The notes beneath the pieces are model-generated. The model did not search any database. It was not told where the DNA came from and was given only the letters and a program-made list of their open reading frames with translations. Of a stretch of 42,088 nt of DNA, positions 18,478 through 41,264 are shown piece by piece. Source of the stretch: Paucibacter sp. TC2R-5 (GTDB lineage: Bacteria > Pseudomonadota > Gammaproteobacteria > Burkholderiales > Burkholderiaceae_C); the NCBI RefSeq assembly GCF_025717605.1, contig NZ_JAJIRQ010000013.1:1-42088 (forward strand), given 5' to 3'. Position numbers and translations under genes: made by a program. Each line of letters opens with the position of its first letter. The stretch's first letter is position 1.

Positions 18478-19655
18478 AGTGGCAAGGCTTTCAAGAATTC
18501 AAGCCGGTCGTCGAACTGGTCGGCCAAAGTTTCATTGAGCCTCTCATCCATGGCTGCTTTTGCGTAATGAAGGGGCATCAAAGAATTTTTCGACCAACCA
18601 AAGTAGCTGCGAAGGTGCGCCATGGCCTGTTCTGGGGATTTGCCTGCGGAAAGCAACTGCTTCATTCGAACGACAGCACAGGTGTGCCGTAGCGCATGGG
18701 GGGTAACAAACAAGGCATCTGTGTACTTGAGTAAATCGGCCCTGGCTCCAGTTGAGAGTGCGCCAGACAGCCTTCGAAATGCTTTGCCAACGCCCGCTAA
18801 AGACAGTGGCTTTCCTAGCATGCTACTCAAAAAATAGTCGTGATTTACTTTACCTCGGTAATTTTCAGCATAAGCAAGAAGCACGCCGGCTGTTGTATTT
18901 GTAACGGGAATTTGTCGAATCGAATCAGCGGTCTTGATACTGGGCTTTGAGAGCCTTGGATCATCCTCAGCTTCGTTGGTTCGAACTATTAAGAGCCACC
19001 GGGTGGCGCCAGTCTTGGGGTCTCGCTGAGAAACTGGCGTGCTTGCGCTGAGCGTCAAGGCCTCACCACGTCGAAGCCCCTGATTCAGCAGCAAGACAAA
19101 CAGGCTGTACACGCGCCATTGTGTGGCCACCTGGTCAAAAGGGTTTCGCGCTGAGCCAGGGGTCACAACCTCCATTATTTCCAACAAGACGGAGGCAGGA
19201 ATCGCTCTTGGCTTTAAGTTGAAGCGTTTCTTAAGTGGTCGAAGCCCAATATAGAGGCGGTCCAGAGCGGCGATTCGTTCACGGATATCGGCCATACGAT
19301 GAGCCATGGCTGGGTTTCGCTCCAGTCGCTCACAAGTGTCTCGGACAAAGAGAAATGCCGTCTGCCATCGAGTTTGTGACGTGCTCTTTGGGCTTGGAAC
19401 GTTCAGCAGTGACACGAAGAATGCTTCCAGCATGTTCCCAAGCGCTTCAAGATCAAGCGCGGCAATTGCGTCGTCCAAGACCCCTCCAGCATTTTCAGTG
19501 TGCGCGTACAGCGACTCAATGTCCGATAGTTTCCTTTTTAGGGTCGAAGTCGCTAAACCGGCTCCGTGAAAGATTGACCAGACCGATGCCCAATACCTAG
19601 GCAACATTTGGTCGTCAACCAGAACTGGTTTTTGATGTGGGAGTGTGAGGAGCAT
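18474..19655 (-). CDS. Tyrosine recombinase (first of three)
   Basis: This 393-residue protein is the first gene of the operon. The N-terminal 110 residues form the core-binding domain. The catalytic set is R195 or R196 in NQGLRRGEAL, H320-x-x-R323 in HALRHTCAV, W354 in FGWSKNS (the accepted alternative to histidine), and Y364 in PLHYAKA. It resembles TnpA-type enzymes in size (Tn554 TnpA is 361 aa). Just upstream of its ATG lie two direct repeats with paired boxes at 19658-19735, which may be its binding sites. The promoter must lie between 19656 and about 19840. Confidence 0.9.
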   Translation of the reverse strand: MLLTLPHQKPVLVDDQMLPRYWASVWSIFHGAGLATSTLKRKLSDIESLYAHTENAGGVLDDAIAALDLEALGNMLEAFFVSLLNVPSPKSTSQTRWQTAFLFVRDTCERLERNPAMAHRMADIRERIAALDRLYIGLRPLKKRFNLKPRAIPASVLLEIMEVVTPGSARNPFDQVATQWRVYSLFVLLLNQGLRRGEALTLSASTPVSQRDPKTGATRWLLIVRTNEAEDDPRLSKPSIKTADSIRQIPVTNTTAGVLLAYAENYRGKVNHDYFLSSMLGKPLSLAGVGKAFRRLSGALSTGARADLLKYTDALFVTPHALRHTCAVVRMKQLLSAGKSPEQAMAHLRSYFGWSKNSLMPLHYAKAAMDERLNETLADQFDDRLEFLKALPL

Positions 19656-19738: not shown

Positions 19739-19766
19739 TCTATCGACAATGTGTATTTTGCCGGTC
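19739..19766. other. attL: dif-like half site (XerC arm and centre kept)
   Basis: The sequence reads TCTATCGACAA (XerC arm), TGTGTA (centre), then TTTTGCCGGTC. Bases 19741-19757 are identical to 31801-31817 at the other end of the prophage. The last 11 bases do not resemble a XerD arm, as expected if phage sequence replaced it on integration by XerC-first strand exchange. Confidence 0.65.
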
Positions 19767-19848
19767 AGCGAAAAACGCTCAGAACCTCGATAAACACTGG
19801 CGAAACTCCCGTTTGGCCTATGGGACAAAATGTCCCAAACTTGCGTTT

Positions 19849-20145
19849 TTAGTGTGCCTGGGACGCTGGGTTAGACGCCTCAAGCCGAGTAAGTAGCATT
19901 TGCCACACTTCGCGGTCTGAATCCGTGCTTGCTCGCTCCAAATTTACCCATGCGACAACCGTCGCTGCATCGAGGCCGCAAAGCTCGCCAAGCCGCATGG
20001 CTACAGGGTTTGCGGGCACTGTCCTGCCTGCCCGATAGTTGCAAATGGCGTTCGGATGGATGCCAAGAATTTTGGCTAAACGGTAGTCGGAAACGTCGCC
20101 TTGGCGCTGCTTGGCGACTTCGATCAAATCGACGGTTGAAAGCAC
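19849..20145 (-). CDS. Prophage HTH repressor candidate (DUF3693-like)
   Basis: I chose the GTG at 20145, five bases after a GGGGGG ribosome-binding site, over the longer ATG frame at 20220, giving 98 residues. Residues 10-60 form an XRE-type helix-turn-helix (YRLAKILGIHPNAICNYRAG), followed by the motif VVAWVNLERASTDSDREVW typical of phage DUF3693 proteins. It is the only gene facing left at this end and is divergent from the early operon. It therefore fits a lysogeny repressor acting on the shared 200-base control region. Confidence 0.78.
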   Translation of the reverse strand: MLSTVDLIEVAKQRQGDVSDYRLAKILGIHPNAICNYRAGRTVPANPVAMRLGELCGLDAATVVAWVNLERASTDSDREVWQMLLTRLEASNPASQAH

Positions 20146-20199
20146 TGAAACCCCCCGGTTTCGTCGCTGAATTGCGACAAAGTGAACTGTATACCCTAC

Positions 20200-20254
20200 A
20201 TCAAACAGAGGGTAGGGCAAACACTACGTTTGATATACAACGTGGCGTTTGATA
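20200..20254. promoter_or_regulatory. Operator-like GTTTGATA repeats in the divergent control region
   Basis: GTTTGATA occurs at 20228-20235 and 20247-20254, 19 bases apart, and its inverse ATCAAAC lies at 20200-20206. The repeats lie between the repressor-like gene and the rightward early genes. Their spacing, close to two helical turns, is what a dimeric repressor operator would show. That the HTH protein binds here is inference. Confidence 0.5.
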
Positions 20255-20267
20255 ACGTGCGCCTCGC

Positions 20268-20324
20268 TGACCGGGTTTTTAAGTCTTGCCTCCCCCGGTT
20301 CCCCCGGTCAGCACCTTGACCGGG
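20268..20324. other. Inverted repeat of TGACCGGG boxes before the first early gene
   Basis: CCCGGTCA (20303-20310) and TGACCGGG (20317-20324) form a perfect 8-bp stem with a 6-base loop, and a third copy, TGACCGGG, is at 20268-20275. The hairpin precedes the first early gene by 24 bases. It could be an attenuator, a second operator or part of the replication origin. Confidence 0.45.
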
Positions 20325-20348
20325 CGGGCCAATGAACGGGGGTTCGGT

Positions 20349-20546
20349 ATGCGTTACACGATCAATTTGATAGGCCAAGACGATCCGGCGACCATCAAAG
20401 CCGAGGCGGGCCGAGTCTTGTTCAATGGGCGGGCAATCCTGCCATTTGAGGCCGCAATGCTGGGCGATGCGCTGAACGAATGCGCCGACCAAGCCGAAAC
20501 ACTCGCAGCGCAAGCGGCGGCGGCACTTCAACCCGTAGAGGCTTGA
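20349..20546 (+). CDS. Small prophage early protein
   Basis: I placed the start at the ATG at 20349 (MRYTINLIGQDD), with GGGGG nine bases upstream, giving 65 residues. It is acidic, with a beta-rich first half (AGRVLFNGRAILPFE) and an alanine-rich helical end (ECADQAETLAAQAAAAL). It lacks a membrane segment and has no family that I know. Being first in the rightward series, it may have a regulatory or replication-accessory role. Confidence 0.6.
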   Translation: MRYTINLIGQDDPATIKAEAGRVLFNGRAILPFEAAMLGDALNECADQAETLAAQAAAALQPVEA

Positions 20547-20549
20547 GCC

Positions 20550-20774
20550 ATGAAGCCGGACACACAGCGTTTTGTTATCGAAGTTCACGAATTTAAAGAC
20601 AACAGCCTGAAAAAATGGGTCAGGGCAGTCGGCCGCAAAGGGCCGCAATATTACGTTTGCTGGACGCGGGCCGCGGCGTGTGAAATGCGGGGCGGCATCG
20701 CTGAAAGATCGCTTGCGGAGCTGGCGAAAACAGCGGCGGCGGCGGGGCACACTTTGCGGATAGTTCCAGCATGA
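20550..20774 (+). CDS. Small prophage protein, unknown
   Basis: This 74-residue protein starts three bases after the previous gene's stop. The first half is beta-like and basic (RFVIEVHEFKDNSLKKWVRA), and the second is helical (IAERSLAELAKTAAAAG). It ends in an ATGA overlap with the next gene. It is cytoplasmic and of unknown role, probably part of the early/replication operon. Confidence 0.6.
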   Translation: MKPDTQRFVIEVHEFKDNSLKKWVRAVGRKGPQYYVCWTRAAACEMRGGIAERSLAELAKTAAAAGHTLRIVPA

Positions 20775-21076
20775 GCGGGCCGCTTTCATCCACACTCGCA
20801 AGCGCGGCGGTGCGTCACGCTGCAATGGCCCAATGCCATGCAGTAATCAAAGCCTGGGCGCCGAGCAAGGCGCAAAGCTTGCCCGCCAAGACCTGGGCGG
20901 CTATTCCAGAGCGCACGCGCTTGACCCTGGTAATGATCGCGGCAAGTCAACCGGGCGAGCCGGTACGGCTGGCGCGGCAGCCGTGGGCGAGCTTTTCCGA
21001 AGCGGATCAGTGCGCAATGGCGGCGGCGGCGCGTGTGCTGCTGAAAGACCTACGCAACGCGGCGAGCTTGTTCTAA
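20771..21076 (+). CDS. Small prophage protein, unknown
   Basis: This 101-residue helical protein starts in an ATGA overlap with the preceding gene. It has repeated Ala-rich helices (STLASAAVRHAAMAQCHAVI; CAMAAAARVLLKDLRNAASL) and no membrane segment or metal motif. I do not recognise it. Its position before the Rep gene suggests a replication-accessory or regulatory role. Confidence 0.55.
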   Translation: MSGPLSSTLASAAVRHAAMAQCHAVIKAWAPSKAQSLPAKTWAAIPERTRLTLVMIAASQPGEPVRLARQPWASFSEADQCAMAAAARVLLKDLRNAASLF

Positions 21077-21079
21077 GCC

Positions 21080-21505
21080 ATGAGCAGCGGAAAAAGCGCG
21101 GTTCTTGCCCGCCTGTATGTCCCTTGTGATTTTGCGGGCTACAGGACAAACATCGAGGCGCATCGGTGGGGAAATACCGTTACATCGGCGTTTGTTGTGC
21201 TGGGGCGAGAGCCTGAACACATCGAATCGTTGCGGGTGCGTATGGGTCCGCACGTGCTTATGGATTTTTCCAGCGTGACAGATCCAGAGACAGGCATTAA
21301 GACAACCGGTGGACAGTTGGCGGCGTGCATGTCGGCCTACTTTGGCCGGCGTGAGCTGGGAGGATTTCGCCTACCGATGGCCGACCTTCCGGGCCAGGGC
21401 GTGGCAATACCGATCAACTGGAGCCTATCGCTTGAAATTGGTTTTTGCGCTGACATGCCGGCCGGCAAGACCTTTGTTTTTCAAGAATTGATCGAGCTGG
21501 GCTGA
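21080..21505 (+). CDS. Prophage protein upstream of Rep, unknown
   Basis: This 141-residue protein is mixed alpha/beta, without signal peptide or membrane segment. It includes SAVLARLYVPCDFAGYRTNI and a C-terminal beta-like stretch (WSLSLEIGFCADMPAGKTFV). Its stop overlaps the Rep start as TGATG, so the two are translationally coupled. A single-stranded-DNA-binding or Rep-accessory role is possible from position only. Confidence 0.55.
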   Translation: MSSGKSAVLARLYVPCDFAGYRTNIEAHRWGNTVTSAFVVLGREPEHIESLRVRMGPHVLMDFSSVTDPETGIKTTGGQLAACMSAYFGRRELGGFRLPMADLPGQGVAIPINWSLSLEIGFCADMPAGKTFVFQELIELG

Positions 21506-23283
21506 TGCCTTACAGCGCCGCACAAATCCGGTCCTTGAAAGCCGAGGCCGACGCGCCGCACTATGCGGAGGCGAAGCGCCGCGCAGAGTTCGCGGACGCT
21601 ATGCGCTGGGCCGGCGCCAAGATCGACACGGCTTTGCACAGCATCACCGGCCTTGAGCCCGATTGGCAATTGCGGGCCGTCGCCAAAGCGCGGGCGGCGG
21701 CAATGCTTAATCTGATCCGCGACTATGAGCAGAAGATAACGCCGGCCTGGATCAATGAGCAGGTAACGCTCTTACAGGCGGCGCCGCTTGCGTTCAAATG
21801 CGGCACCGGCCGCGATGATGAGCAGTTGCAAGCAATGGTGAAGCGGGCGACTTGCCATTTGTGGTGGCGCCGCCAGCTTCGACGCGCCGCCGTAAGTACG
21901 AGAGAAACGGCCGCGATGCACGCGGGCGAAGTCTGCGCAAGGCGCCGACAGCCTTACGTAACGAACGATACGGTTCGACGTTACGAGCTGGCCGACAAAC
22001 GCAATAGGGAAATGCTGGAAGCGACAGAGCTGGAAAGCGCGGACGGCGAAGTCATAAACCTGCTGCAAGCCGTAGAAGCCAGTACGGCAAACAAGGCTAT
22101 CCGGCGCGGTGAGCTGATGACGCGCATACGGGGCGCCGAAGAATGGGCCGAGGCGCGGGGCATGGTGGGCTTGTTCACGACGAACACCACACCGAGCCGC
22201 TTTCACTCGCAACTGATGCGGGCCGGCGCCAACCCAAAGCACGACGGCAGCACGCCGAAGGATGCGCAGCAGTGGTTATGCAAGACCTGGGCGCGAGCGC
22301 GGGCGGCATTGCAGCGGCGCAAGGTGCGGGTTTTTGGCTATCGCGTGGCCGAGCCGCATCATGACGGATGCCCGCATTGGCACATGCTCCTATGGTGCGA
22401 CCCGGCACAGGTGCAACAGTTGCGCGAAACAATCCGGGCCTATTGGCTGGCCGATGCCGGCGACGAACCCGGCGCACAGGAACACCGATTCAAGGCCAAG
22501 GACTTAGACGCGGGCGGCGCCGTTTCGTATGTCGCCAAGTACATATCCAAGGGCATAGATGACGCCGGACAGATCGGCGCCGAAGGCCACACCGACGAGC
22601 GCGGCGGCGAACAGGCTGAAATGTTCGACGGCAACGCGAACAGGGTCCAGCGATGGGCCGCAGCATGGGGCATTCGGCAATTTCAGAGCATCGGGCAACC
22701 CCCGGTTACGGTTTGGCGCGAGTTGCGGCGGGTCACTGACCAAGCCGCACAGGGCGCGACTATCACGGTACAGGCCGCACATGCGGCAGTCAGCAAGACC
22801 AGCGGGCGCCGTGCGTGCTGGCGGGCCTACATGGACGCGCAGGGCGGCGCCATGCAAGGCCGCGCATACGCCGTGCGCGTGCTGGACGATGGCGAGCCGA
22901 GGGAAGGGCGCTACGGCACGGAATACCGGCCGCGCCCGGTGGGCGTGTTTGATGTGGCCGAGCCGGATCAATGGATTTTGAGCAACCGGCGCGAATGGAA
23001 AGCGCGGGGAGCCTGGGCCGAGTCGGAGCGGGTCCAGCTGCGCGGGTGGTTGTGGGCTGAGGCAAGGCCGCAGGCCGCGCAGCCTTGGACCCGTGTCATT
23101 AACTGTACGCAGGGGCGCCAGCAGGGCGCCGACCTGATGAGCCTAGGGCTAGTCGGGGCATTGAGAAAAGAGCCGGGGGCGGCAGTAAATCAACAGGAAA
23201 CCTATGAAACGCACCCCCCAAACCATCGCGGCCGAAGCTCGGGCCCATTTGACAAACGCCAGCTTGGCATTTGTCCCGGTTAA
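21505..23283 (+). CDS. Rolling-circle replication initiator (HUH, phage gpA/PM2 P12 type)
   Basis: This 592-residue protein matches the Phage_GPA (superfamily I) Rep group. Motif 1 is probably VGLFTTNTTPSRFH (221-234). Motif 2 is the metal-binding HUH H291-W-H293 in DGCPHWHMLLW. Motif 3 has the two active tyrosines Y342 and Y346 in SYVAKYISKG, the YxxxY spacing of phiX174, P2 and PM2 initiators. Rep nicks one strand at the origin and stays bound to the 5' end. The C-terminal 30 residues overlap the next gene in another frame and may be dispensable. The nick site was not located. Confidence 0.93.
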   Translation: MPYSAAQIRSLKAEADAPHYAEAKRRAEFADAMRWAGAKIDTALHSITGLEPDWQLRAVAKARAAAMLNLIRDYEQKITPAWINEQVTLLQAAPLAFKCGTGRDDEQLQAMVKRATCHLWWRRQLRRAAVSTRETAAMHAGEVCARRRQPYVTNDTVRRYELADKRNREMLEATELESADGEVINLLQAVEASTANKAIRRGELMTRIRGAEEWAEARGMVGLFTTNTTPSRFHSQLMRAGANPKHDGSTPKDAQQWLCKTWARARAALQRRKVRVFGYRVAEPHHDGCPHWHMLLWCDPAQVQQLRETIRAYWLADAGDEPGAQEHRFKAKDLDAGGAVSYVAKYISKGIDDAGQIGAEGHTDERGGEQAEMFDGNANRVQRWAAAWGIRQFQSIGQPPVTVWRELRRVTDQAAQGATITVQAAHAAVSKTSGRRACWRAYMDAQGGAMQGRAYAVRVLDDGEPREGRYGTEYRPRPVGVFDVAEPDQWILSNRREWKARGAWAESERVQLRGWLWAEARPQAAQPWTRVINCTQGRQQGADLMSLGLVGALRKEPGAAVNQQETYETHPPNHRGRSSGPFDKRQLGICPG

Positions 23284-23398
23284 CGTTGTCAAATCGGCAG
23301 AGCTGGCCGTTGAATTCATGGAGAGCACAGTAGCGGCGCTGGACTCGGCCGGCATCCTGCCTCAAGACCCGCCAGCACCAGAACAAGCGGCGGGCTGA
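23204..23398 (+). CDS. Small prophage protein overlapping the end of rep
   Basis: This 64-residue protein has AGGAAA five bases before its ATG and overlaps the rep gene by 80 bases in another frame. It is helical (TIAAEARAHLTNASLAFVPV; AELAVEFMESTVAALDSAGI) with a Pro-rich end. It lacks a membrane segment. The good ribosome-binding site makes it credible in spite of the overlap. The function is unknown. Confidence 0.6.
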   Translation: MKRTPQTIAAEARAHLTNASLAFVPVNVVKSAELAVEFMESTVAALDSAGILPQDPPAPEQAAG

Positions 23399-23400
23399 CC

Positions 23401-23709
23401 GTGGCGGCCGAGACAATCGGCCGCTGCAAGTGTCCGGTTTGCGGCGGGGCGGCGCGTTTGAGTCTCGCCAAGTCGCAACTGTCGGTTATCACTTGCAACG
23501 GTTGCAACTTCCAAGGATTCGCACGGTCCGACCGCAGCGACGAAAAATTGCGGGCTTTGCTCATCGCAGAGCCGGCCGCAGCCGCGCCAGCAGCCGCACC
23601 GGCACCGACGCCGGCACCGGCCGCAGCCAAACCGCCAACACCGGCACCAGCACCAGCAGCCGAGGCGCCAGCAGCGGCGCGGGCGAGCTGGGGCATTTTT
23701 GGAGGCTGA
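23401..23709 (+). CDS. Zinc-ribbon protein with Pro/Ala-rich linker
   Basis: This 102-residue protein begins with GTG, two bases after the previous stop. Residues 9-35 form a zinc ribbon with CPVC (11-14) and CNGC (32-35). Residues 58-95 are a low-complexity Ala/Pro repeat (APAPTPAPAAAKPPTPAPAP), probably an extended linker, ending in the aromatic tail WGIFGG. The ribbon suggests binding of nucleic acid or a replication/transcription partner, for example a late regulator. That is inference. Confidence 0.7.
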   Translation: MAAETIGRCKCPVCGGAARLSLAKSQLSVITCNGCNFQGFARSDRSDEKLRALLIAEPAAAAPAAAPAPTPAPAAAKPPTPAPAPAAEAPAAARASWGIFGG

Positions 23710-23712
23710 CCC

Positions 23713-24201
23713 ATGCCCCCCGATCAAGAAATTCAAGACAAACAACCCGCCGACCTGGGCGCCGACCTGGGCGGGCTACTGTTGCAGGCCGAGGCTATCG
23801 AGGGCGCCAATGCACCGCCTGACCCGACACAGCAGCAAGCCGCGCAAGTGGCGGCCGTGGTCGAGAGCACAGCGGCAGAGCTGCAATCTGCGCTTGAGCT
23901 GGTGCGCATGATGGCGGCGCCGCTTATGAGCTGGTGGCCGGAATTCGGAACGGTCTGGAACGACCGCACATTGCAGGAAATCAGCGCAGGCGGCGCGGCC
24001 GTTATGGAGCGCCACGGCTGGACGGTGGGCGATGCGTTCTCGAAATTCGGGCCCTATATCGCGCTGGCCGGCGCGACCCTGCCGCCTGCCCTTGTGACCT
24101 ATCAGGCCATCAAGCTGAACAGCGCCGAGCAGCGCCGCCAGCAGCAGCCGCAGCGCCGACAGGCGCCGCAGCATGAGGACGCGGAAGGGGTCAGGCCGTG
24201 A
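23713..24201 (+). CDS. Prophage protein with one or two membrane segments, upstream of ATPase
   Basis: This 162-residue protein has an acidic, Gln-rich N-terminal half, an amphipathic region with PLMSWWPEFG, and a hydrophobic segment, YIALAGATLPPALVTYQAI (about 117-135), followed by a Gln/Arg-rich tail. It ends in a GTGA overlap with the packaging ATPase gene. It is probably a virion membrane protein or an anchor for the packaging motor; no family was recognised. Confidence 0.6.
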   Translation: MPPDQEIQDKQPADLGADLGGLLLQAEAIEGANAPPDPTQQQAAQVAAVVESTAAELQSALELVRMMAAPLMSWWPEFGTVWNDRTLQEISAGGAAVMERHGWTVGDAFSKFGPYIALAGATLPPALVTYQAIKLNSAEQRRQQQPQRRQAPQHEDAEGVRP

Positions 24202-24884
24202 GCGTCACCAACCGCGCCAAAATCGAAGCCTACATAGGCGCCAGCAGCAGCGGCAAAGGGGTAAGCATTAAGCGGCGCCTGGATGAGCTGAAGCCGCGGC
24301 GCTTGCTCATCTGGGACCCTCGCAACGAATACGGCAAAAGCGGGCCGGGTTACGACAGCTTGCCCGCCTTGATCGGCGCATTCAAGCACGCCAAAGGCGG
24401 GCCGGTGCGGGCCCGATACGTGCCTGGGGCGAATATGGACCTGGGCGAAGCGTTCGGCATCGTCTGCAAGCTGGCATTCCAAGCCGGAGACTTGGTGTTT
24501 TTGGCCGAGGAGCTTTCAGACGTTACAAAACCGAGCTGGGCGCCGCCAGCGTGGCGCCAATGCCTGACGCAAGGCCGGCACCAAGCATTGCACATCATCG
24601 GCGCGGCGCAGCGGCCGACCCTGATAGACAAGACGTTTCTTGCGAATTGCACCCTTGTTCGATGCCTGACCCTGGGCTATGCCGAGGACCGTAAAACAAT
24701 GGCACGCGAGCTGGACGTTGGCCAAGCGGCCATAGACGCGCTTTATGTGACCGAAACCGACACGCTGACGGTGATGGCTTACTTGGAGCGAGAGCGCCGC
24801 AGCAAGGAACTTACAGCGGGTCACATGCAATTCAAGGCCGGCAAATTCAGCGAAAAGCGTACACCTCACGCCGGGGCTACGTAG
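24198..24884 (+). CDS. Genome-packaging ATPase (FtsK/HerA-like, PM2 P9 type)
   Basis: This 228-residue protein starts with GTG in a four-base overlap. The P-loop is GASSSGKG (14-21), Walker B is LVFLAEEL with E104/E105, and a later GAAQRPTLIDKTFLANC region corresponds to the sensor segment of this class. Tailless membrane-containing dsDNA phages package with a small FtsK/HerA/A32-like ATPase of this size rather than a terminase. Its place just before the capsid gene matches other double-jelly-roll viruses. Similarity to Zot-type ATPases of filamentous phages is expected of the superfamily. Confidence 0.85.
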   Translation: MSVTNRAKIEAYIGASSSGKGVSIKRRLDELKPRRLLIWDPRNEYGKSGPGYDSLPALIGAFKHAKGGPVRARYVPGANMDLGEAFGIVCKLAFQAGDLVFLAEELSDVTKPSWAPPAWRQCLTQGRHQALHIIGAAQRPTLIDKTFLANCTLVRCLTLGYAEDRKTMARELDVGQAAIDALYVTETDTLTVMAYLERERRSKELTAGHMQFKAGKFSEKRTPHAGAT

Positions 24885-24894
24885 CGCCTACGTA
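24878..24894. promoter_or_regulatory. TACGTA repeats before the structural genes
   Basis: TACGTA occurs at 24878-24883 and 24889-24894, separated by GCGCC, at the end of the ATPase gene and ahead of the only gap of about 100 bases in the rightward operon. It could be an operator for a late promoter that drives the capsid genes. No clear -35/-10 pair was seen. Confidence 0.3.
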
Positions 24895-24982
24895 CAGGCG
24901 GCGGGCCTATGTACAAACGGCGAAACCGGGTTTACTGGCGGTGTTCTTTTCACCCACACTTCAAACCAAGGAAGCCGACCAA

Positions 24983-25090
24983 ATGAAAGCCCATATCAAA
25001 AACGCCGCGATGACTACCGGCATTGTTCTGTTGACGATCTACGCATTGCGCCAGATCAGCATGACGAAAAATCTTGTCGATCGCGCCTTG
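24983..25090 (+). CDS. 35-aa single-span membrane peptide before the capsid gene
   Basis: This small open frame has AAGGAAG eight bases before the ATG and encodes a basic N terminus (MKAHIKNAAM), one membrane segment (TTGIVLLTIYAL) and a polar tail ending LVDAP. PM2 and its relatives encode several tiny membrane proteins that sit in the internal lipid layer next to the capsid, and this fits that role. It is real on grounds of ribosome-binding site, composition and place, but has no confirmed homologue. Confidence 0.6.
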
Positions 25091-25170
25091 AACGGCTGAC
25101 CGACAAACACGCGGGCCGCATGGCCTAACTTCAAATCGAGCCGGGGGGCACGAAGAAGGAAACAAACGCC

Positions 25171-26010
25171 ATGCGCGCTATTCGCCTCCCACAATTCCAG
25201 AACGTCGGCCCAAATCAGCGGGTTTCTATTCGCCTCCCCCTGGGTGTTTGCTACGAGAAGATTTATCTTCAACTCGGGACCAACATTCTGACCACGTTGA
25301 TTACGAATATCGTCCTTCGGATCAACAACAAAGAAGCGCAACGCTGGAACAGCGCCGCCGACATGATCACCGGTTTGAATGCCTATAAGGGCAACAACAC
25401 AGCCAGTACCTCATTCTTGACGCTCGACTTCACCGAGGGCAGCGCAAAAGAAGAGGTAGGCATGAAACTTGGGACCATCGCTGCAACCCAAGAGGCCGGC
25501 GTTCAAGAATTCACGCTTGAGTTTGACCTAGGCACCTACACGGTAGTTGGTGGCTCAATCATCACCGGATGGGCAGATGTTGAACAGCCAAGCGCAAACG
25601 GTGTTATCCAGCGCGTGCAAGTGGCTCAAAAAGTCATCGCAGCAGCCGCGCAGGAACAAATCTTTGTTCCTTTTGGCAAAAACGGCTACCAAGTCAAACG
25701 CATCATCATCAAGCACACCAATCTGTCCAGCATTCGTGTTCGACGGGATGGCGTGGACATTTACGAGGACTTGCCCGTAGCTTTGGCAAATCAGCGTTTG
25801 ACCGACTTCAAGCGCATTCCTCAGGCCGGCTATCACGTGTTGGACTTCATGCCCGACTCGCTGCAAAGCAACGCCTTCAACACGGCATTGATTCGCGGCG
25901 CGGACGGTAAGCCCATTCCGGTGGAAAACTTGGATATTCGCGTGACCACTTCGGCCGCCGACACGCTGACGGTCTACACCGAAGCCTATAGCCTCAACTC
26001 GCAGTTGTGA
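25171..26010 (+). CDS. Major capsid protein, PM2 P2-like double jelly roll
   Basis: The 279-residue protein begins MRAIRLPQFQNVGPNQRVSI, with the pattern MRxxxL...NV......SI.LP.G..YE also seen in PM2 P2 (269 aa). Later shared patterns are the DLPV segment after an RRDGVDIYED stretch and YHVLDFMPDSLQSN near 225-240, matching P2's YTIDFM region. It is beta-rich throughout, without signal peptide or membrane helix, as expected of two stacked jelly rolls. The start has AGAAGGAAA upstream. It would build the icosahedral shell around an inner lipid membrane. The pattern match is from memory of PM2 P2, so alignment scores are not given. Confidence 0.87.
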   Translation: MRAIRLPQFQNVGPNQRVSIRLPLGVCYEKIYLQLGTNILTTLITNIVLRINNKEAQRWNSAADMITGLNAYKGNNTASTSFLTLDFTEGSAKEEVGMKLGTIAATQEAGVQEFTLEFDLGTYTVVGGSIITGWADVEQPSANGVIQRVQVAQKVIAAAAQEQIFVPFGKNGYQVKRIIIKHTNLSSIRVRRDGVDIYEDLPVALANQRLTDFKRIPQAGYHVLDFMPDSLQSNAFNTALIRGADGKPIPVENLDIRVTTSAADTLTVYTEAYSLNSQL

Positions 26011-26017
26011 TGCCGGT

Positions 26018-26050
26018 GCGGGCGCCCAAGCGGCGCCCGCCTGGGCATTT
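26018..26050 (+). terminator. Strong hairpin after the capsid gene
   Basis: GCGGGCGCC, a 5-base loop, then GGCGCCCGC forms a perfect 9-bp GC stem eight bases after the capsid stop codon. It is followed by TTTT at about 26047. It probably works as a partial terminator or 3'-stabilising structure, giving capsid mRNA in excess over the downstream minor proteins. Confidence 0.65.
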
Positions 26051-26062
26051 TGAAAGGACGCT

Positions 26063-26464
26063 ATGAGCGCAAGAATCGACAACATGATGAGTCCGACTGA
26101 TGACGCCGCCTATACGGGCAGCTACAACGACAGCGCGGGCGCCTGGGACATGGGCGGCGCAACGCCGGATCAGTTCGAGGCCGCACAGATGCAGCCGTTT
26201 ACGCCTGGATCAAATCAGGGAGTTCCTTGGTGGCAAGGGATCATCGGCTATGGCATCACGCGAGCAATTGACAACCGCTATGGACCAACGCCAATTCAGG
26301 GCAATGTTGCGGCGGGCAGCTTCGCCGGACAAAACGGCCGCAGCTACTACCAAGCGCCAAACGGCACGCGGGGACAAGTGCCCCAGAGCCAGCAGCAGGC
26401 CGGGACGAATCCGCTTGTGTTGCTGGGCGGGCTTGCACTCGCCGCGCTCGCGTTCGCGGGCTGA
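26063..26464 (+). CDS. Virion membrane protein candidate
   Basis: This 133-residue protein has AAAGGA before the ATG. The N-terminal 110 residues are polar, rich in Gly, Gln and Asn (VPWWQGIIGYGITRAIDNRY). The C terminus is one membrane helix (NPLVLLGGLALAALAFAG) ending at the last residue. It is a tail-anchored form suited to the phage inner membrane. It is the first gene after the capsid hairpin. No family was recognised. Confidence 0.65.
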   Translation: MSARIDNMMSPTDDAAYTGSYNDSAGAWDMGGATPDQFEAAQMQPFTPGSNQGVPWWQGIIGYGITRAIDNRYGPTPIQGNVAAGSFAGQNGRSYYQAPNGTRGQVPQSQQQAGTNPLVLLGGLALAALAFAG

Positions 26465-26467
26465 CCA

Positions 26468-26878
26468 ATGGCTAACGGCATCGCAGCCGGCGCACAGGCC
26501 GGGGCGGCTTTTGGGCCTTGGGGCGCAGCCGTGGGCGGCGCATTGGGCGCCGCCACTGATATGGCAAGCGCGGCAATGGGCGGGCCATTCATGGGCGGCA
26601 CTTCGCACGCCACATACGGCGATGTAGACGTAGATCATTCTGGTTGGTCAGTCAACGTCGGCAGCGGATCGGCAACGACCGACAACGCACAAACCAAGAC
26701 CAAGCGCAAAGAGCAGGCGGCAGTGCGCGACCAATTCGCGCAGGGGATCGGCTACGGGCCTCCGTGGGCTGATGACGTTATGCCGGCCGCGCCAATGCAG
26801 GCCGGAATGAACAACTACGCGATTTTTTTCCTAGGCGGCGCGGCGCTGGTGATGCTCATTAAGAGGATGCGCAAGTAA
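26468..26878 (+). CDS. Virion membrane protein candidate, Gly/Ala-rich
   Basis: This 136-residue protein begins with a glycine-zipper-like hydrophobic stretch (GAAFGPWGAAVGGALGAATD), has a polar middle, and ends with one membrane helix (YAIFFLGGAALVMLIKRMRK). Glycine-zipper segments often insert into membranes. The terminal KRMRK would face the inside. It starts after a three-base gap and overlaps the next gene by one base. It is probably a structural membrane protein. Confidence 0.65.
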   Translation: MANGIAAGAQAGAAFGPWGAAVGGALGAATDMASAAMGGPFMGGTSHATYGDVDVDHSGWSVNVGSGSATTDNAQTKTKRKEQAAVRDQFAQGIGYGPPWADDVMPAAPMQAGMNNYAIFFLGGAALVMLIKRMRK

Positions 26879-27243
26879 TGGGCAGCTTGAGGCCAGCAAC
26901 CGACCGGGCCGCAGCCGTTGAACGACTGCGGCCGGTGGAACGTCACGCGCTGGAAGGCGCGACCGTGGCCGATATGACGGCCGGCTGTTTGATGCTAGAC
27001 ATACTCGAAAACGGCCGCGCCGTGGGCGCCGTCGCGCTCGATATTGTCGGCAACGTGGCGACCATCACGGCAACAGCGCGGGACGGCGAGCTAGGGCCGG
27101 ATGAGCTGGCCCAACTCGAGACAATCGCAAGGCGAGAGGGCGCCCACACCCTCAAATTTTGGACGCGCAGGCCGGCGCTTGTTCGATCAATGCAGCGGGC
27201 CGGCTTTGAGCTGGTAAGCGCAGAAATGGAAAAGGCCATTTGA
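26878..27243 (+). CDS. GNAT-like acyltransferase-fold protein in the virion operon
   Basis: This 121-residue protein has the look of a short GNAT domain: a central beta pair (AVGAVALDIVGNVATITATA), a helix (ELAQLETIARREGAHTLKFW), and the typical end RPALVRSMQRAGFELVSAEM. The acetyl-CoA-binding RxxGxG/A loop is not clearly present, so it may have lost catalysis or use the fold for another job. It overlaps both neighbours, so it is co-expressed with the structural genes. Small GNAT-like genes also occur in other phages among virion genes, with unknown role. Confidence 0.6.
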   Translation: MGSLRPATDRAAAVERLRPVERHALEGATVADMTAGCLMLDILENGRAVGAVALDIVGNVATITATARDGELGPDELAQLETIARREGAHTLKFWTRRPALVRSMQRAGFELVSAEMEKAI

Positions 27244-28442
27244 TGGGATCAAAAAGCAGTCAGGCCAACAGCCAGCAGTCAACGCAAAACTACGATCAGC
27301 GGCAAACCAACATCACCGATGACCGCGACACAACGAATATTTACGACTGGAGCGACCACAGCACCCGCACAAATCTGAACAATCAGCAGAGTTGGGACAA
27401 CTCAATCCGCGTTTCTGACAGCTCCGACCGGCGCCAGAGCTGGACGGACAACAGCGACCGCAGCAGCCGCCAGAGCTGGACGGACAACAGCGACCGCAGC
27501 AATACGCAGAGCTGGGACAACTCAATCCGCGTTTCTGACAGCTCCGACCGGCGCCAGAGCTGGACGGACAACAGCGACCGCAGCCAGGACAACTCGATAC
27601 GAGTTTCTGATAGCTCGGACCGGCGCCAGAGCTGGACGGACAACAGCGACCGCAGCCAGGACAACTCGATACGAGTTTCTGATAGCTCGGACCGGCGCCA
27701 GAGCTGGACGGACAACAGCGACCGCAGCTACAACGACAGCAGCGACCGCAGCACGCACCAAGCATTTGATAACTCGATACGTGTAAGCGATGACAGCGAC
27801 CGGCGCCAGAGCTGGACGGACAACAGCGACCGCAGCTACAACGACAGCAGCGACCGCAGCACGCACCAAGCATTTGATAACTCGATACGTGTAAGCGATG
27901 ACAGCGACCGGCGCCAGAGCTGGGCCGATAACAGCTCAAGGTCTGACAGCTCTGATAACTCGATACACGTAAGCGATGACCGAGATTGGTATGACGCAAG
28001 GTCAGACAGCAGCCAGAGAAATACAACTACGGTTAATTGGACCGGCACGGATGCCGGAGCGGCCGAGCTGCTGAAGGGGATAAGCAAAGACCAAACGGAC
28101 GGCATCAAAACAATTGCCGGGTTTGGAGATGATGCATTGCGGCGAATGGGCGACAACGCGACCAGCGTATACGCGACGGCCGGCAGCAATGCGACACGTG
28201 CCTTTGACTTGGCGACCGCTCGCAGTACGGATGCCTGGAGCGCCACAGTCGAAAAATCGACCGGCTTGATTGACTCGCTGCTGAAGGGCGCAAACAACAC
28301 GGTAAACGCAGCGCGGGACATATCGCAAAGCGCAATTACCAGTTTTCAACCCGCAGAAAACAAGGCCCAAGACGTTGGCCTAAAACTCGGCATGATCGCG
28401 GCGGCGGGCGTGGCCGTGCTGATGCTGACAAGGAAAAAATAA
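27243..28442 (+). CDS. Repeat-rich membrane-anchored fibre/spike candidate
   Basis: The ATG at 27243 overlaps the previous stop as TGATG, giving 399 residues. Residues 1-50 are Gln/Asn-rich. Residues 52 to about 248 are tandem Ser/Asp/Arg repeats of the pattern DNSIRVSDSSDRRQSWTDNS. Residues 260-375 are helical, with regular DNA/AT repeats (GDNATSVYATAGSNATRAFD), and the protein ends with a membrane helix (LGMIAAAGVAVLMLTRKK). A long repetitive shaft with a C-terminal membrane anchor suits a vertex fibre or a protein linking spike and inner membrane. DNA-level repeats make length variation likely. The role is inferred. Confidence 0.7.
   Translation: MGSKSSQANSQQSTQNYDQRQTNITDDRDTTNIYDWSDHSTRTNLNNQQSWDNSIRVSDSSDRRQSWTDNSDRSSRQSWTDNSDRSNTQSWDNSIRVSDSSDRRQSWTDNSDRSQDNSIRVSDSSDRRQSWTDNSDRSQDNSIRVSDSSDRRQSWTDNSDRSYNDSSDRSTHQAFDNSIRVSDDSDRRQSWTDNSDRSYNDSSDRSTHQAFDNSIRVSDDSDRRQSWADNSSRSDSSDNSIHVSDDRDWYDARSDSSQRNTTTVNWTGTDAGAAELLKGISKDQTDGIKTIAGFGDDALRRMGDNATSVYATAGSNATRAFDLATARSTDAWSATVEKSTGLIDSLLKGANNTVNAARDISQSAITSFQPAENKAQDVGLKLGMIAAAGVAVLMLTRKK
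27396..27986 (+). repeat. Tandem coding repeats (72-bp and 108-bp units)
   Basis: The unit encoding DNSIRVSDSSDRRQSWTDNS recurs about six times. Two near-identical 72-bp units lie at 27585-27656 and 27657-27728, and two near-identical 108-bp units at 27729-27836 and 27837-27944. The units are in frame multiples of three, so slippage would change protein length without breaking the frame. They also generate a long Cys-rich open frame on the other strand, which is not a gene. Confidence 0.9.
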
Positions 28443-28444
28443 GC

Positions 28445-29167
28445 ATGGAAAACCTACGAATCACACTCGCGGCCGGTGAAACAAAAGTATTTGTTAAGGC
28501 TGGCCGATACTTTGAAATCATTGATTCAACCGCAGCAGTTACCTTGGCGTTTTATGACTCGAACGGATCACAATGCGATGACGCGACGAACGTATTAAGT
28601 GGCTTCTTTTTCTCGGAAAGTTATGCGCAGTTCGACATTTACAGCGCAACGGCTCAAACGGTCGAAATATTTTTATCGTCAAGCGCGGCAGGTAGCAAGA
28701 GGCAACCGGGAATTGTGCGGGTTGTAGATGGAGAGAGAGATAAGGTTATTTCTGGCGTGTGTTTTAGGGGCGCACCCGGCAATTCGGGAAATGCGCCTGT
28801 TTGTCAATTATTCAATCCGGCCGGAAGCGGAAAAAATGTATTCGTTCAAGCTGTCAGGGCTGGCGCCTTGAATGCCGACAGTTGGGGAATCAGGACAACA
28901 ACAACGCCGCACACGACAAGCCAGGGGCAGGGGCGAAATCTGGACGTAACGGGCGCAGATTCGGCGGCACAGATGCGCGTAGACGTAAACCCGACGCCGG
29001 CAAACCAAAGATTTTTGGCGAGTGGTTATATCGCGGCATCATCGGACACCGTAGTTATATTTCCGCGTCCGGTGATAGTCAGGCCGGGCTATGGAATAGA
29101 TTTTTACGTCGGCGCGGCAGCTAACACAATCCGCACGAATTTTGAGTGGGAAGAATGGCCGTTATGA
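28445..29167 (+). CDS. Beta-rich minor virion protein
   Basis: This 240-residue protein is almost entirely beta-like and contains no membrane helix. The start MENLRITLAAGETKVFVKAG and the end FPRPVIVRPGYGIDFYVGAA are the kind of paired strands seen in jelly-roll minor capsid or spike domains. Its codons are more AT-rich than those of its neighbours, suggesting a different origin, as receptor-binding proteins often show. It follows the repeat protein by two bases, and the two could form the receptor-binding vertex together. The function is inferred. Confidence 0.6.
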   Translation: MENLRITLAAGETKVFVKAGRYFEIIDSTAAVTLAFYDSNGSQCDDATNVLSGFFFSESYAQFDIYSATAQTVEIFLSSSAAGSKRQPGIVRVVDGERDKVISGVCFRGAPGNSGNAPVCQLFNPAGSGKNVFVQAVRAGALNADSWGIRTTTTPHTTSQGQGRNLDVTGADSAAQMRVDVNPTPANQRFLASGYIAASSDTVVIFPRPVIVRPGYGIDFYVGAAANTIRTNFEWEEWPL

Positions 29168-29850
29168 CGCCAACCCGCGCCGCCATCATCGGCGCCGCCA
29201 TCATCGGCGGCGCCTGGATGCTTGCCCGCGCAGCCGACCAAGCCGCAGCCTATGACGTTCAAGACGCGCCAAGCGCCGACCCGGCCGAGGGTTCGACCGT
29301 CCTCGACTTCGCAAACCCTTGGGGCGCCATTGAGCGCCAATATGACGCACACCAGACCGAGGCCGCGATGAGCAGCACCAACACAGCAGCCTTTTTGACC
29401 CTGATTGACTACAGCGAAGGCACAAGCAAGGGCGGGCGCGACCCGTATCGGACTTGCTACGGCTACCGCCACACAATCAACAGCTTCGCAGATCACCCGG
29501 CCGTCACCGGTGAGTGGTCCGGCGAGAGCATCGCCAACTTGGGCCCGCAATACGCGGGCCAAGTGTCCACAGCGGCGGGCCGTTATCAAATCATCAAACC
29601 GACTTGGCTGATGTGCAAGCGGGCGCTAAACCTGCCCGACTTTTCGCCAGATAGCCAGGACAAAGCGGCCGTTTACTTGATCCGCAAGCGCGGGGCGCTG
29701 GACGCTATCGAAGCCGGCCGCGTGGCCGAGGCCGTCGCCAAGTGCCGCCAGGAATGGGCAAGCCTGCCCGGTGCGGGCTACGGGCAACCAGAGCGCCGCC
29801 TAACTGCGCTGATTGACGCATACACAAACGCCGGGGGAGTCCTCGCATGA
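29164..29850 (+). CDS. Endolysin, lambda R-type lytic transglycosylase (GH104)
   Basis: The ATG at 29164 overlaps the preceding stop as ATGA, giving 228 residues. Residues 5-25 form an N-terminal membrane anchor or signal-arrest segment (AAIIGAAIIGGAWMLA). The catalytic domain from about 70 onward follows phage lambda R closely: IDYSEGTSKGG with the catalytic E85, STAAGRYQIIKPTW, DFSPDSQDKAAVYLI and WASLPGAGYGQPE. It cleaves peptidoglycan between MurNAc and GlcNAc without water, leaving anhydro-MurNAc. It could serve lysis or entry. Confidence 0.93.
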   Translation: MTPTRAAIIGAAIIGGAWMLARAADQAAAYDVQDAPSADPAEGSTVLDFANPWGAIERQYDAHQTEAAMSSTNTAAFLTLIDYSEGTSKGGRDPYRTCYGYRHTINSFADHPAVTGEWSGESIANLGPQYAGQVSTAAGRYQIIKPTWLMCKRALNLPDFSPDSQDKAAVYLIRKRGALDAIEAGRVAEAVAKCRQEWASLPGAGYGQPERRLTALIDAYTNAGGVLA

Positions 29851-30401
29851 TGAAGCTCGAAAGCATCAAATTCTTGGTGATCCTGGGCGCGGCCGGCGCG
29901 GCGGGCCTTTACATCTGGCAGCGCGGCGGCATCGCCCAAGCGGCAGCGGGCGCGGGCGCAGCAATGGGCGGCGCCGTGGTGGATGCAGCGGGCGGCGCCG
30001 TTACGGGCGTGGTCACAGGCGCAAGCCAAGCCGTAGGCATCCCGACGCCAGCACAAACCACAACGGACGCGGCCGTCGCTCGCTGGATCATCGACAACGC
30101 CGGCTATTGGGAAGCGTCGAAGTGGTGCGGCTTGCCCGCGCTGCTGAAGGGCGCCGCGATGGATGCCGGCACCGGATCGCCGCCGCCAGCTCAGAGCGCA
30201 GCGGGGCGCGAGTTCTTGAACAGGGCGCCGCCGCAAGCCAGCTACGACGAAACCGACAGACTCGCCAAACGCTACCCAAGCCCAAGCCAGAGCCAATATG
30301 AAACGGGCGGGCGCTACGCCGGCAGCGGCAGCGGCGCGGCAGATGAACGCAGCTTTTCCGACCTCTCAAACCCAAATTACAACTACTGGCCGACACCATG
30401 A
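29847..30401 (+). CDS. Prophage membrane protein, Gly/Ala-rich N terminus
   Basis: This 184-residue protein starts ATGATG in an ATGA overlap. Residues 6-26 form a membrane helix (SIKFLVILGAAGAAGLYIW), and residues 28-60 are a glycine-zipper-like segment (AGAGAAMGGAVVDAAGGAVTG). The C-terminal half is polar, with a Tyr/Ser/Asn-rich tail (DLSNPNYNYWPTP). It sits between endolysin and holin genes but looks more like a virion or penetration-tube protein than a lysis protein. Confidence 0.6.
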   Translation: MMKLESIKFLVILGAAGAAGLYIWQRGGIAQAAAGAGAAMGGAVVDAAGGAVTGVVTGASQAVGIPTPAQTTTDAAVARWIIDNAGYWEASKWCGLPALLKGAAMDAGTGSPPPAQSAAGREFLNRAPPQASYDETDRLAKRYPSPSQSQYETGGRYAGSGSGAADERSFSDLSNPNYNYWPTP

Positions 30402-30580
30402 AGAAAATCGCCCAATACATCGCCGCTCGCTTGCGTGAGCCTTCTACCTTGTCGGGCCTTGCGGCCGTGGGCGTGCTGTTCGGCCTGCCGGCCGGGACCG
30501 TAGACGCGGGCGCGGCCGTGGTGGCTGGCGCGTGCGCCGTGCTGGCCGTGGTCTTGCCAGATGATTGGGCAAGCAAATGA
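30398..30580 (+). CDS. Holin candidate
   Basis: This 60-residue protein has a basic amphipathic start (MKKIAQYIAARLREPSTLSG) and two hydrophobic segments (LAAVGVLFGLPAGTV and AAVVAGACAVLAVVLP), ending DDWASK. The REPST...GLAA start and the size match short phage holins. It lies downstream of the endolysin gene and overlaps both neighbours. It would form membrane lesions that trigger lysis. Confidence 0.7.
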   Translation: MKKIAQYIAARLREPSTLSGLAAVGVLFGLPAGTVDAGAAVVAGACAVLAVVLPDDWASK

Positions 30581-30780
30581 TGCCGGTAACGGATGCAGGC
30601 GGGCGGGCCATCGTCGCCGCTTTGCTGGGCGCCGCGTTGGGATGGGGCGGTAATGCTCTCACGGTGGGCGGGCGCGTGTCTGCCATCGAGGCGGCGCTAG
30701 TCAGAATTGAGGCTAAGTTATACATGCAGGCCGTTATGACGCCGGCACCTGGGCAACAGACACAGGCGCCGACCAAATGA
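30577..30780 (+). CDS. Small membrane protein with coiled coil (lysis-related candidate)
   Basis: This 67-residue protein starts ATGATG, overlapping the holin stop. It has one hydrophobic segment (AIVAALLGAALGWGGNAL) and a short heptad stretch (VSAIEAALVRIEAKLY), then a Pro/Thr/Gln tail. The form resembles accessory holin or inner-membrane spanin proteins. The assignment rests on position in the lysis block. Confidence 0.55.
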   Translation: MMPVTDAGGRAIVAALLGAALGWGGNALTVGGRVSAIEAALVRIEAKLYMQAVMTPAPGQQTQAPTK

Positions 30781-30917
30781 AGGCCGGCAGCTTGATGCCA
30801 AGCGGGCCGGCCGTGGTGCGCGAAGCCGTGACCGTGATCGCGGGCGCCGTGCTTGCCGCTTTCGTGATGTATCAATTTCCCGCCGTCAAAGCCTGGGTAA
30901 AACGCGCCTGGGAATGA
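30777..30917 (+). CDS. 46-aa single-span membrane protein
   Basis: This short open frame starts in an ATGA overlap and encodes MKAGSLMPSGPAVVREAVTV, then a membrane helix (IAGAVLAAFVMYQFPAV) and a basic end (KAWVKRAWE). The overlaps on both sides and the lysis-block context support it as real. It may be an inner spanin or a small virion membrane protein. Confidence 0.55.
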   Translation: MKAGSLMPSGPAVVREAVTVIAGAVLAAFVMYQFPAVKAWVKRAWE

Positions 30918-30967
30918 GACACTATGGCCGGCGCATTTCAGCGTTAGCCAATTGGGAGATTGACAAA

Positions 30968-31243
30968 ATGAAAGCTCTATTCATGATCGCGGCCGGCTTG
31001 ATCCTGACCGCTTGCGGCGGCGGTGGCGGCAGTGATGCACCGGCAAAGCCGGCCGAAGCCTGCAAGGAAGTCACCAACACGACCGGAGACATTGTGGACA
31101 AGGCCGGCAAAGTGCTCATAGCCGGTACGTCGACAAAAGTCAGCTTGTGCTGCGCGACCGCGTTCAAGGTAACGACGACGCCGGATCAAGTGGGCAGCGA
31201 TGGAAGCATCATGAAGGGCAATACAACCAACAGTTGCACCTGA
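30968..31243 (+). CDS. Small lipoprotein (outer-spanin candidate)
   Basis: I chose the ATG at 30968, preceded by GGGAG, rather than the frame from 30914. The 91-residue product has a lipoprotein signal (MKALFMIAAGLILTACGGGG), with the lipid-bearing cysteine in LTAC at residue 15, and then a polar domain with cysteines in EACKEV, LCCATAF and NSCT. As the last gene of the lysis block it could be the outer-membrane half of a spanin pair. It might instead be a lysogenic conversion or exclusion lipoprotein. Confidence 0.65.
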   Translation: MKALFMIAAGLILTACGGGGGSDAPAKPAEACKEVTNTTGDIVDKAGKVLIAGTSTKVSLCCATAFKVTTTPDQVGSDGSIMKGNTTNSCT

Positions 31244-31260
31244 CCCGGCCTAGTCCAACG

Positions 31261-31692
31261 TCAAGCCCGGCGCCTTTCAGCAGGTGGCCGGGCTTGTTTC
31301 ATTCGCCGCTCGATCGCGTGCGCCACGGCAGCAGGCGGCATCGAATGCCGGTGCGCCATAAGCGGGCTATTGGCCGAGCCAAAATCACCGAGCGCCATCA
31401 AGCGCAGCACGTCGGCTAGATGGGCTTCTGCCTGGGCCTGGGCACACCGGGCGAGCTGGGCCTGCAAAACGGCATCATTTACGGCCGCGCAGTCAACCAA
31501 ACTACGGCCCCAAGTCGTTAGCCAAAACAGAGCGAGTCTTGCCTGAAGCGGCGCATCATCATCGCGGCACCATCGAGCCAGCGTGCGCCGATTGACGCCG
31601 AGCAGCGCGGCAACTTCGCCGCGTGTTGCGCGTAGGTTCTCCAAAATCTGGCAAATCTGCGGCAACTGTTGCGGTATTTGCTTGCTTATCAT
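31261..31692 (-). CDS. HTH-type prophage regulator, convergent to the late genes
   Basis: This 143-residue protein starts at the ATG at 31692 (MISKQIPQQLPQ). Residues 18-42 look like a helix-turn-helix (RATRGEVAALLGVNRRTLAR), with an invariant-looking WCRDDD after it. The remainder is helical (AVNDAVLQAQLARCAQAQAE) with a basic C terminus. It is the only leftward gene at this end and is 108 bases inside attR. It may control excision, copy number or late expression; none of these can be read directly. Confidence 0.65.
   Translation of the reverse strand: MISKQIPQQLPQICQILENLRATRGEVAALLGVNRRTLARWCRDDDAPLQARLALFWLTTWGRSLVDCAAVNDAVLQAQLARCAQAQAEAHLADVLRLMALGDFGSANSPLMAHRHSMPPAAVAHAIERRMKQARPPAERRRA
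31263..31299 (+). terminator. Intrinsic terminator of the rightward prophage operon
   Basis: AAGCCCGGC (31263-31271) and GCCGGGCTT (31287-31295) form a perfect 9-bp stem with a 15-base loop, followed by GTTTC. It lies 20 bases after the last rightward gene and overlaps the end of the convergent regulator gene. It may serve both directions, because the inverse side also has a T-poor tail. Confidence 0.65.
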
Positions 31693-31798
31693 AATTTCAT
31701 CCCTGAAATAAAGTTTTTTTTGTCTATTGACGAAAAGATTATGGGGGGTTAAGGCTTGACAAGACTTGATAAAAGCTGAACAAAACGGCCCTCAGAAC

Positions 31799-31826
31799 TT
31801 TATCGACAATGTGTATTATGTAAAAT
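31799..31826. other. attR: complete dif-like site (XerC arm, centre, XerD arm)
   Basis: The sequence reads TTTATCGACAA, TGTGTA and TTATGTAAAAT. Against E. coli dif, the centre differs at one base (TGTATA) and the XerD arm at one base (TTATGTTAAAT); the XerC arm is more divergent, as usual between lineages. In this model the XerC side comes from the phage and the XerD arm from the host. A functional dif would be kept, which a lysogen needs for chromosome dimer resolution. Confidence 0.7.
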
Positions 31827-35828: not shown

Positions 35829-35899
35829 ACTGTCTACTCCCTCCGCGTCTGTATTGCGCGTATTTGTTGGCTTGCTTGCCTACTTGGCCTTTGAGCCCA

Positions 35900-36031
35900 T
35901 CAATCCAGGCTGTGGGCGCTTTCCAGAAATCCGCGAATTGCAGTATTGCTCCAAGCATCAGCCTCAAACAAAAGATGGTCCCGCACGATGTAACGAACGA
36001 TGCCTTCGCGTACTTGCTTTGGTGTTTTCAC
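35900..36031 (-). CDS. 43-aa protein resembling the C terminus of the neighbouring 154-aa protein
   Basis: A GTG start at 36031 has AGGGAG six bases upstream, a strong ribosome-binding site. The product begins MKTPKQVREGIVRYIVRDHL and contains EADAWSNTAIRGFLESA. The neighbouring protein ends with EEDVVQYLTRDYVLALAAEW then TNSKIRAFVDRRN: the two share the pattern V-x-YxxRDxxL...A-x-W-(S/T)N-x-x-I-R-x-F. It lies between the 154-aa gene and hsdR and is probably co-transcribed. It may be a stand-alone copy of the same domain, or a remnant. The gene looks genuine; the function is unknown. Confidence 0.65.
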   Translation of the reverse strand: MKTPKQVREGIVRYIVRDHLLFEADAWSNTAIRGFLESAHSLD

Positions 36032-36112
36032 TCTTCGCTCCCTGTTCGCGTAAAAAATGTCAGTTCTGTCTAATGATCGAATCGATTTCTGGGTGGCTTC
36101 TGGTCAGGCCCA

Positions 36113-40271: not shown

Positions 40272-40336
40272 GGGGCGGGTTCTGGGTCAGGCGGATTCAG
40301 GCTAAATAAGGCTCGGGGCGGCAATAAGCCGGCAGC

Positions 40337-41263: not shown

Positions 41264-41264
41264 A

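Follow-up and report, generated by a model that had tools for sequence, protein, structure and literature searches.

Bacteria separate joined chromosomes at the dif site. Its use by tailless phages has been considered before: integration at dif has been proposed for the NO16-like phages of Vibrio (PMC9966536), a few tailless Vibrio prophages have been seen at dif (PMC11630473), and dif use has been inferred for the Rhodobacter phage Jorvik (PMC10589892). In TLC-type elements, which belong to the integrative mobile elements exploiting Xer recombination (IMEX), the phage attachment site attP has a good XerC arm, a centre matching dif and a degenerate XerD arm, and recombination is XerD-first and does not need FtsK (PMC4246890, PMC5357621). 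Here and below, published systems are described from the accessible portions of the papers cited and of PMC1950889, PMC9765430, PMC4471427, PMC5608472, PMC7549136, and PMC2533119. We analysed a stretch of 42,088 nucleotides from Paucibacter sp. TC2R-5 (contig NZ_JAJIRQ010000013.1; the window), in which an element of 12.1 kb is, judged from its genes and ends, an integrated, integrase-less prophage of the corticovirus type at the dif site of the genus. An earlier sequence-only reading had called dif use by such phages little described, which was overstated in view of the Vibrio and Rhodobacter proposals.

The prophage spans positions 19739-31826, i.e. it extends from a crippled site at its early-gene end to a full dif. 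The late end is formed by an intact 28-bp dif, TTTATCGACAA-TGTGTA-TTATGTAAAAT (31799-31826, forward strand), and the early end by TCTATCGACAA-TGTGTA-TTTTGCCGGTC on the same strand (19739-19766), where the XerC arm and the centre TGTGTA are retained, with all six centre bases equal to those of the late end, and phage DNA takes the place of the XerD arm. Both sites contain the same 17-bp direct repeat (19741-19757 and 31801-31817, exact and on the same strand); no third copy with ≤3 mismatches is present on either strand of the window, where 0.03 would be expected by chance. Thus, the bounding repeat, the 11+6+11 site at the right and the lost XerD arm at the left, as noticed in the sequence-only reading, all hold, and so does the absence of an integrase, since no recombinase family was found between the repeats among the tested open reading frames (ORFs) of the window. 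Like an IMEX, the prophage is inserted exactly at the chromosomal dif, and its attP, as deduced from the two junctions, would have the TLC design, the XerC arm and the centre matching dif and the XerD arm being degenerate. Its assignment to the corticovirus type (order Vinavirales) is made from genes alone, i.e. a P2-type double-jelly-roll capsid protein (25171-26010, forward strand; PF18628 E=7.1e-28, PF25513 E=1.8e-24) and a packaging ATPase (24198-24884, forward strand; phrog_2666, head and packaging).

The right site is the sole match at ≤3 mismatches in its own genome (5.13 Mb, 45 contigs), which encodes XerD and a XerC-like protein. Among the compared genomes (G-numbers; L-numbers denote loci or stretches taken from genomes or from IMG/VR) the 28-bp site occurs in all 18 of the genus and in none of 41 outside it. 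A second dif-like copy with 3 mismatches, three centre-side changes, is found in G009 of the same genus (L019 / L069). In the relative G007, a 5.17-Mb contig profiled by 20 sampled stretches of 20 kb, GC skew and the polarity of the FtsK-loading motif GGGNAGGG (FtsK-orienting polar sequence, KOPS) both switch at dif, the motif counts on the two strands being 33:5 in the ten stretches before dif, 3:29 in the next eight, and 4:2 and 0:0 in the last two. Moreover, the empty site is preserved in G004, where an uninterrupted dif lies between the same left neighbour, the end of a recombinase element, and the same right neighbour. The checks proposed by the sequence-only reading, i.e. a sole genomic dif, its location at the skew and motif switch (in G007) and an uninterrupted dif in a prophage-free relative, thus came out in its favour, and neither a better dif elsewhere nor the repeat at a non-dif locus in relatives, which it had named as counterevidence, was encountered.

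A relative, L050 from a Burkholderiaceae metagenome-assembled genome, is a syntenic prophage of 13 kb with the same end layout, a major capsid protein (MCP) 81% identical to that of the window and a dif that is the only match in that genome. The window MCP itself had no match among phage records or in IMG/VR; an MCP alignment retrieved four distant loci from IMG/VR, among them L117 with paired sites. In a genome survey, 9 of 399 genomes sampled from the order, 4 of 369 from the class, and 7 of 43, 4 of 61 and 13 of 245 from three families gave P2_N matches; the samples overlap and together hold 32 separate prophage loci. Dif-type sites are present at both ends of 24 of these, 5 have weaker or one-ended sites and 3 none. 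The 24 consist of 23 tabulated loci and G828, in which the sites are 34 kb apart and the capsid gene is split. Among the five weaker loci, L075 and L184 have the early-end half-site while the late end is off the contig, L171 has a good dif at one end only, L078 is a remnant beside dif, and L166 has a half-site in a rearranged copy. With L050 and L117 (IMG/VR) the 23 loci make up 25 tabulated pairs; the layout rule was noticed on the first eight loci and then applied to the remainder, and the same pairing script returned no pair on 40 control stretches from G007 and G212. The 25 prophages contain 232 filtered ORFs of ≥165 aa, and a Pfam scan of all of them in three sets, by which smaller or unrecognised enzymes may be missed, found no recombinase family, the only match coming from a control added to one set, L185 (G570), a P2-capsid prophage away from any detected dif with a tyrosine recombinase beside it (14833-15726, PF00589 E=1.9e-25). 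A search of IMG/VR with a 15-base piece of the site gave 30 stretches, mostly lacking the XerD arm and probably matched by chance; L085 has a full site. The IMG/VR contig L090 (2022-8265) contains two genus-type sites at a distance of 6.2 kb, of which one has a degraded XerD arm; this may be another phage at the same dif.

The good arm of the crippled site is XerC in 14 and XerD in 11 of the 25 pairs, and the two centres are identical in 23. The crippled site lies at the early-gene end in all 25, so that the late genes are read toward dif, and MCP, without exception (25/25), is read with the crippled site behind it and the full dif ahead. A homologue of the helix-turn-helix (HTH) gene next to the crippled site occurs in 22 prophages, always at the crippled end; it was not found in L072, L117 and L165. 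The arm type changes at least six times on a tree built from the capsid protein, the ATPase and the replication protein (the last missing in four rows), five of the changes being forced by well-supported branches. L180 and L178 have opposite arm types, yet they are 81% identical over 5.4 kb, and this close pair makes it directly testable which recombinase acts first. In G910 a single dif is shared by two P2-capsid prophages, one of each type, which face each other from its two sides (L172, 4186-15932; L173, to 6890). One-armed sites are found in free phages as well, of the XerD-arm type in PM2, Cr39582 and GXT1010 and of the XerC-arm type in fNo16. For the XerD-arm type, too, there is an empty site: dif is uninterrupted in G804, which has no P2_N match, and occupied by the prophage in G173, the flanks being 85% identical on the C side and 77% on the D side of the intact dif. 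Two further features were observed in these prophages. In L070 and L170 the dif centre, TATATA, is palindromic and one host flank is on the D side in the former and on the C side in the latter, so the orientation of dif within the neighbouring DNA may be reversed. In L176, L178, L179, L180 and L076, which include both arm types, the crippled site is separated from the HTH gene by a long GC-rich inverted repeat (CCTCATGCCACC and its complement).

Inside the prophages the FtsK-loading motif mostly points toward dif. Three copies of GGGNAGGG in the window prophage point toward dif (20210-20217, 22901-22908 and 28925-28932, all forward strand), and in the 25 prophages 75 copies point toward and 4 away from dif, as compared to 29 and 13 expected from a first-order model; the motif ranks first of 56 arrangements of the same letters. 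Within ORFs it occurs 54 times versus 18.7 (sd 3.8, maximum of 200 = 30) under synonymous shuffling, the reverse motif 3 times versus 9.2, and the control GGGANGGG 27 times versus 19.0. These counts are not independent as related phages share motif positions; in a thinned set of 16 prophages the ratio is 47:3 toward dif. The host flanks show 25:0 and 25:0 toward dif (23 of the 25 loci, the G910 pair being omitted). KOPS have been found in permissive orientation in prophages of E. coli and Salmonella (PMC5993296), and lambdoid prophages share one orientation relative to replication (PMC11253608), so the polarity seen here extends these precedents and is not the first of its kind. It suggests that a prophage through which FtsK passes has to match the host terminus in polarity. 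It is likely that dif is home to a whole group of double-jelly-roll phages whose one-armed attP comes in two mirror-image forms, the good arm always facing the late genes, so that integration takes place on the matching side of dif and the genes and FtsK-loading motifs of the prophage run toward dif, with the replication fork; at least five arm switches that leave this rule unbroken point to selection by replication and FtsK on prophage orientation.

As for the way in, we consider it very probable from the arrangement of sites that the corticovirus-type genome enters dif by means of the host recombinases XerC and XerD. This is because dif is unique in its genome, conserved throughout the genus, situated at the G007 switch and empty in G004, with XerD and a XerC-like protein encoded by the host; because 24 of 32 loci and none of the 40 controls have paired sites, L050 shares the layout and G804 and G173 provide a second empty site; and because no recombinase family was found in the 232 ORFs, free phages carry one-armed sites, MCP direction is uniform in 25 of 25 and host KOPS point toward dif (25:0 and 25:0 in 23 of 25 loci). 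In the circular phage genome attP would lie between the late genes and the HTH gene, with its XerC arm next to the former, its degenerate arm next to the latter and the centre between the arms. XerC on the good arm would help XerD onto the poor one, and exchange across the identical 6-bp centre would yield an early end made of the host XerC arm and phage DNA and a late end made of the phage XerC arm and the host XerD arm, leaving the host with one working dif. FtsK coming through the prophage would pass the crippled site and stop at dif, and the prophage should thereby be kept from leaving. Relatives with the other arm would integrate on the other side of dif in opposite orientation, their genes and KOPS still pointing toward dif.

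The sequence-only reading had compared the asymmetry of the ends to XerC-first integration of CTX-type filamentous phages. The CTX attP consists of two inverted dif-like sites folded from single-stranded DNA, and CTX and VGJ depend on XerC alone, as the XerD side of their centre is not homologous (PMC4246890, PMC5357621). Retention of the XerC arm with loss of the XerD arm would suit such XerC-only integration of single-stranded phage DNA, and the GPA-type replication protein implies single-stranded intermediates. However, the window has no inverted copy of the 17-mer (a search at ≤3 mismatches, by which weaker sites may be missed), homology is not confined to the XerC side of the centre but covers all six bases, and 11 tabulated relatives retain the XerD arm instead. 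A lost XerD arm together with an identical centre is the TLC-phage pattern, and we rejected CTX-type folding as unlikely.

Integration could also have formed two full sites, of which one arm decayed later. One dif suffices for dimer resolution, so the host could afford the loss, and decayed or broken prophages do exist (L078, L166, L167/L168). Decay after integration is nevertheless a very improbable source of the asymmetry, and was rejected, as all 25 pairs have their crippled site at the early end and the free-phage records of PM2, Cr39582, GXT1010 and fNo16 are already one-armed.

Several observations weigh against host Xer use under the rule outlined above. No dif site was detected at L073, L163 and L185 (3 of 32 loci), and motif polarity is 4:0 in L163 and 1:0 in L073, so polarity by itself is no proof of residence at dif. 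L171 has dif at its late end with a weak partner at the early end, the centre pairs of L117 and L180 differ by one base (2/25), and phage PG21, with both arms and an 8-bp centre, is outside the one-arm rule. In G212, skew and KOPS switch roughly 20-160 kb beyond dif. GGGNAGGG is absent from five reference marine phages, and the single 8-mers of the motif rank 87, 339, 418 and 3840 of 54771 by strand skew. Finally, a stretch ending 83 bp outside the left site (14643-19655) contains two tyrosine-recombinase genes and, overlapping, a third long ORF.

That these neighbouring recombinases integrate the phage, dif being merely their target, is hardly credible and was rejected: although they are that close, two of them have PF00589 (in 16978-18477, and just below the cut-off in 18474-19655) and related genes, 59-68% identical in G007 and 44% in L117, adjoin dif in the former and the early prophage end in the latter, they sit outside the repeats, such genes or a remnant lie beside dif without the phage in G007 and G004, and most dif-seated relatives have no match to them. 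The genes just outside the left site belong to a separate element. Besides the two tyrosine recombinases, their operon, which abuts the XerC side of dif (14105-19655; see also L055, L060, L059, L065 and L117), includes a 182-aa ORF and an overlapping one of 780 aa that has no Pfam match; it is perhaps a second kind of dif-targeting element. G007, G004, G012 and L117 have similar genes or remnants at dif, together with a ACGCAACAC-like motif some 25 bp away from the arm; in G015 the motif occurs alone.

Within the prophage, the crippled site is adjoined by the gene for an HTH DNA-binding protein, probably a repressor-type regulator (19849-20220, reverse strand; phrog_4441, phrog_638). On the forward strand follow a GPA-type nicking replication protein (21505-23283; PF05840 E=1.5e-77, phrog_91), a long repeat-rich protein (27240-28442, delimited by sequence and L050 synteny), for which a structural role is a guess from position and repeats, and an endolysin (29146-29850; phrog_90 E=2.3e-42). 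A small HTH protein with weak PF20432 and phrog_66 matches adjoins dif (31261-31692, reverse strand); a homologue is in the same place in L050, L181 also has a match, and as a guess it is a candidate integration or excision factor. The region to the right of dif (32697-41326) has the R, S and M genes of type I restriction and also encodes an HNH protein; a defence library found only these restriction genes and weak matches in the window, and Rfam gave no match in it.

Compared with the systems described, the TLC satellite phage of Vibrio cholerae (a TLC-type IMEX, XerD-first and FtsK-independent) may be regarded as the nearest precedent for the window type, as it shares the matching XerC arm and centre, the degenerate XerD arm and the one dif kept, and the attP design of the gonococcal genetic island is the same; both differ in being filamentous or island elements and not double-jelly-roll phages, and the XerD-first order and the XafT factor are features of TLC, to which the window is likened by attP sequence alone. 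Among tailless phages, NO16/fNo16 have a P2-type capsid as well, and fNo16 has an XerC-arm site beside its HTH gene, whereas the hosts are others, the window MCP matches none of the phage records and the accessible literature on them did not yield the arm rule. PM2 and the temperate Cr39582 (Corticoviridae) share the P2 capsid, a GPA-type replication gene and an HTH gene adjoining a one-armed dif-like site, but are of the XerD-arm type, lower in GC and devoid of GGGNAGGG. Jorvik is integrase-less with dif-resembling attP and attB; it differs by insertion in the cbbII operon region and a 212-aa replication protein. One-armed sites also occur in inoviruses: Cf1c of Xanthomonas keeps the XerC arm, and the 19-bp repeat of phiRSS0 from Ralstonia (PMC3816273) spans, by our comparison, the centre plus the XerD arm of dif in Ralstonia (PMC2731167). 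For these two, the accessible text did not show both arm types in the same phage group, and after comparison of phiRSS0 and PM2 mirror-image XerD-arm sites could no longer be called unknown. The openly available literature, i.e. outside subscription papers and supplements, yielded no description of tailless phages with two mirror-image types of arm or with a direction fixed toward dif. Use of dif by tailless phages itself has been proposed before; what is new here are the mirror-image types, the fixed direction and the motif polarity, by which a suspected use of host Xer at dif becomes a rule with a testable layout, in hosts outside the earlier proposals.

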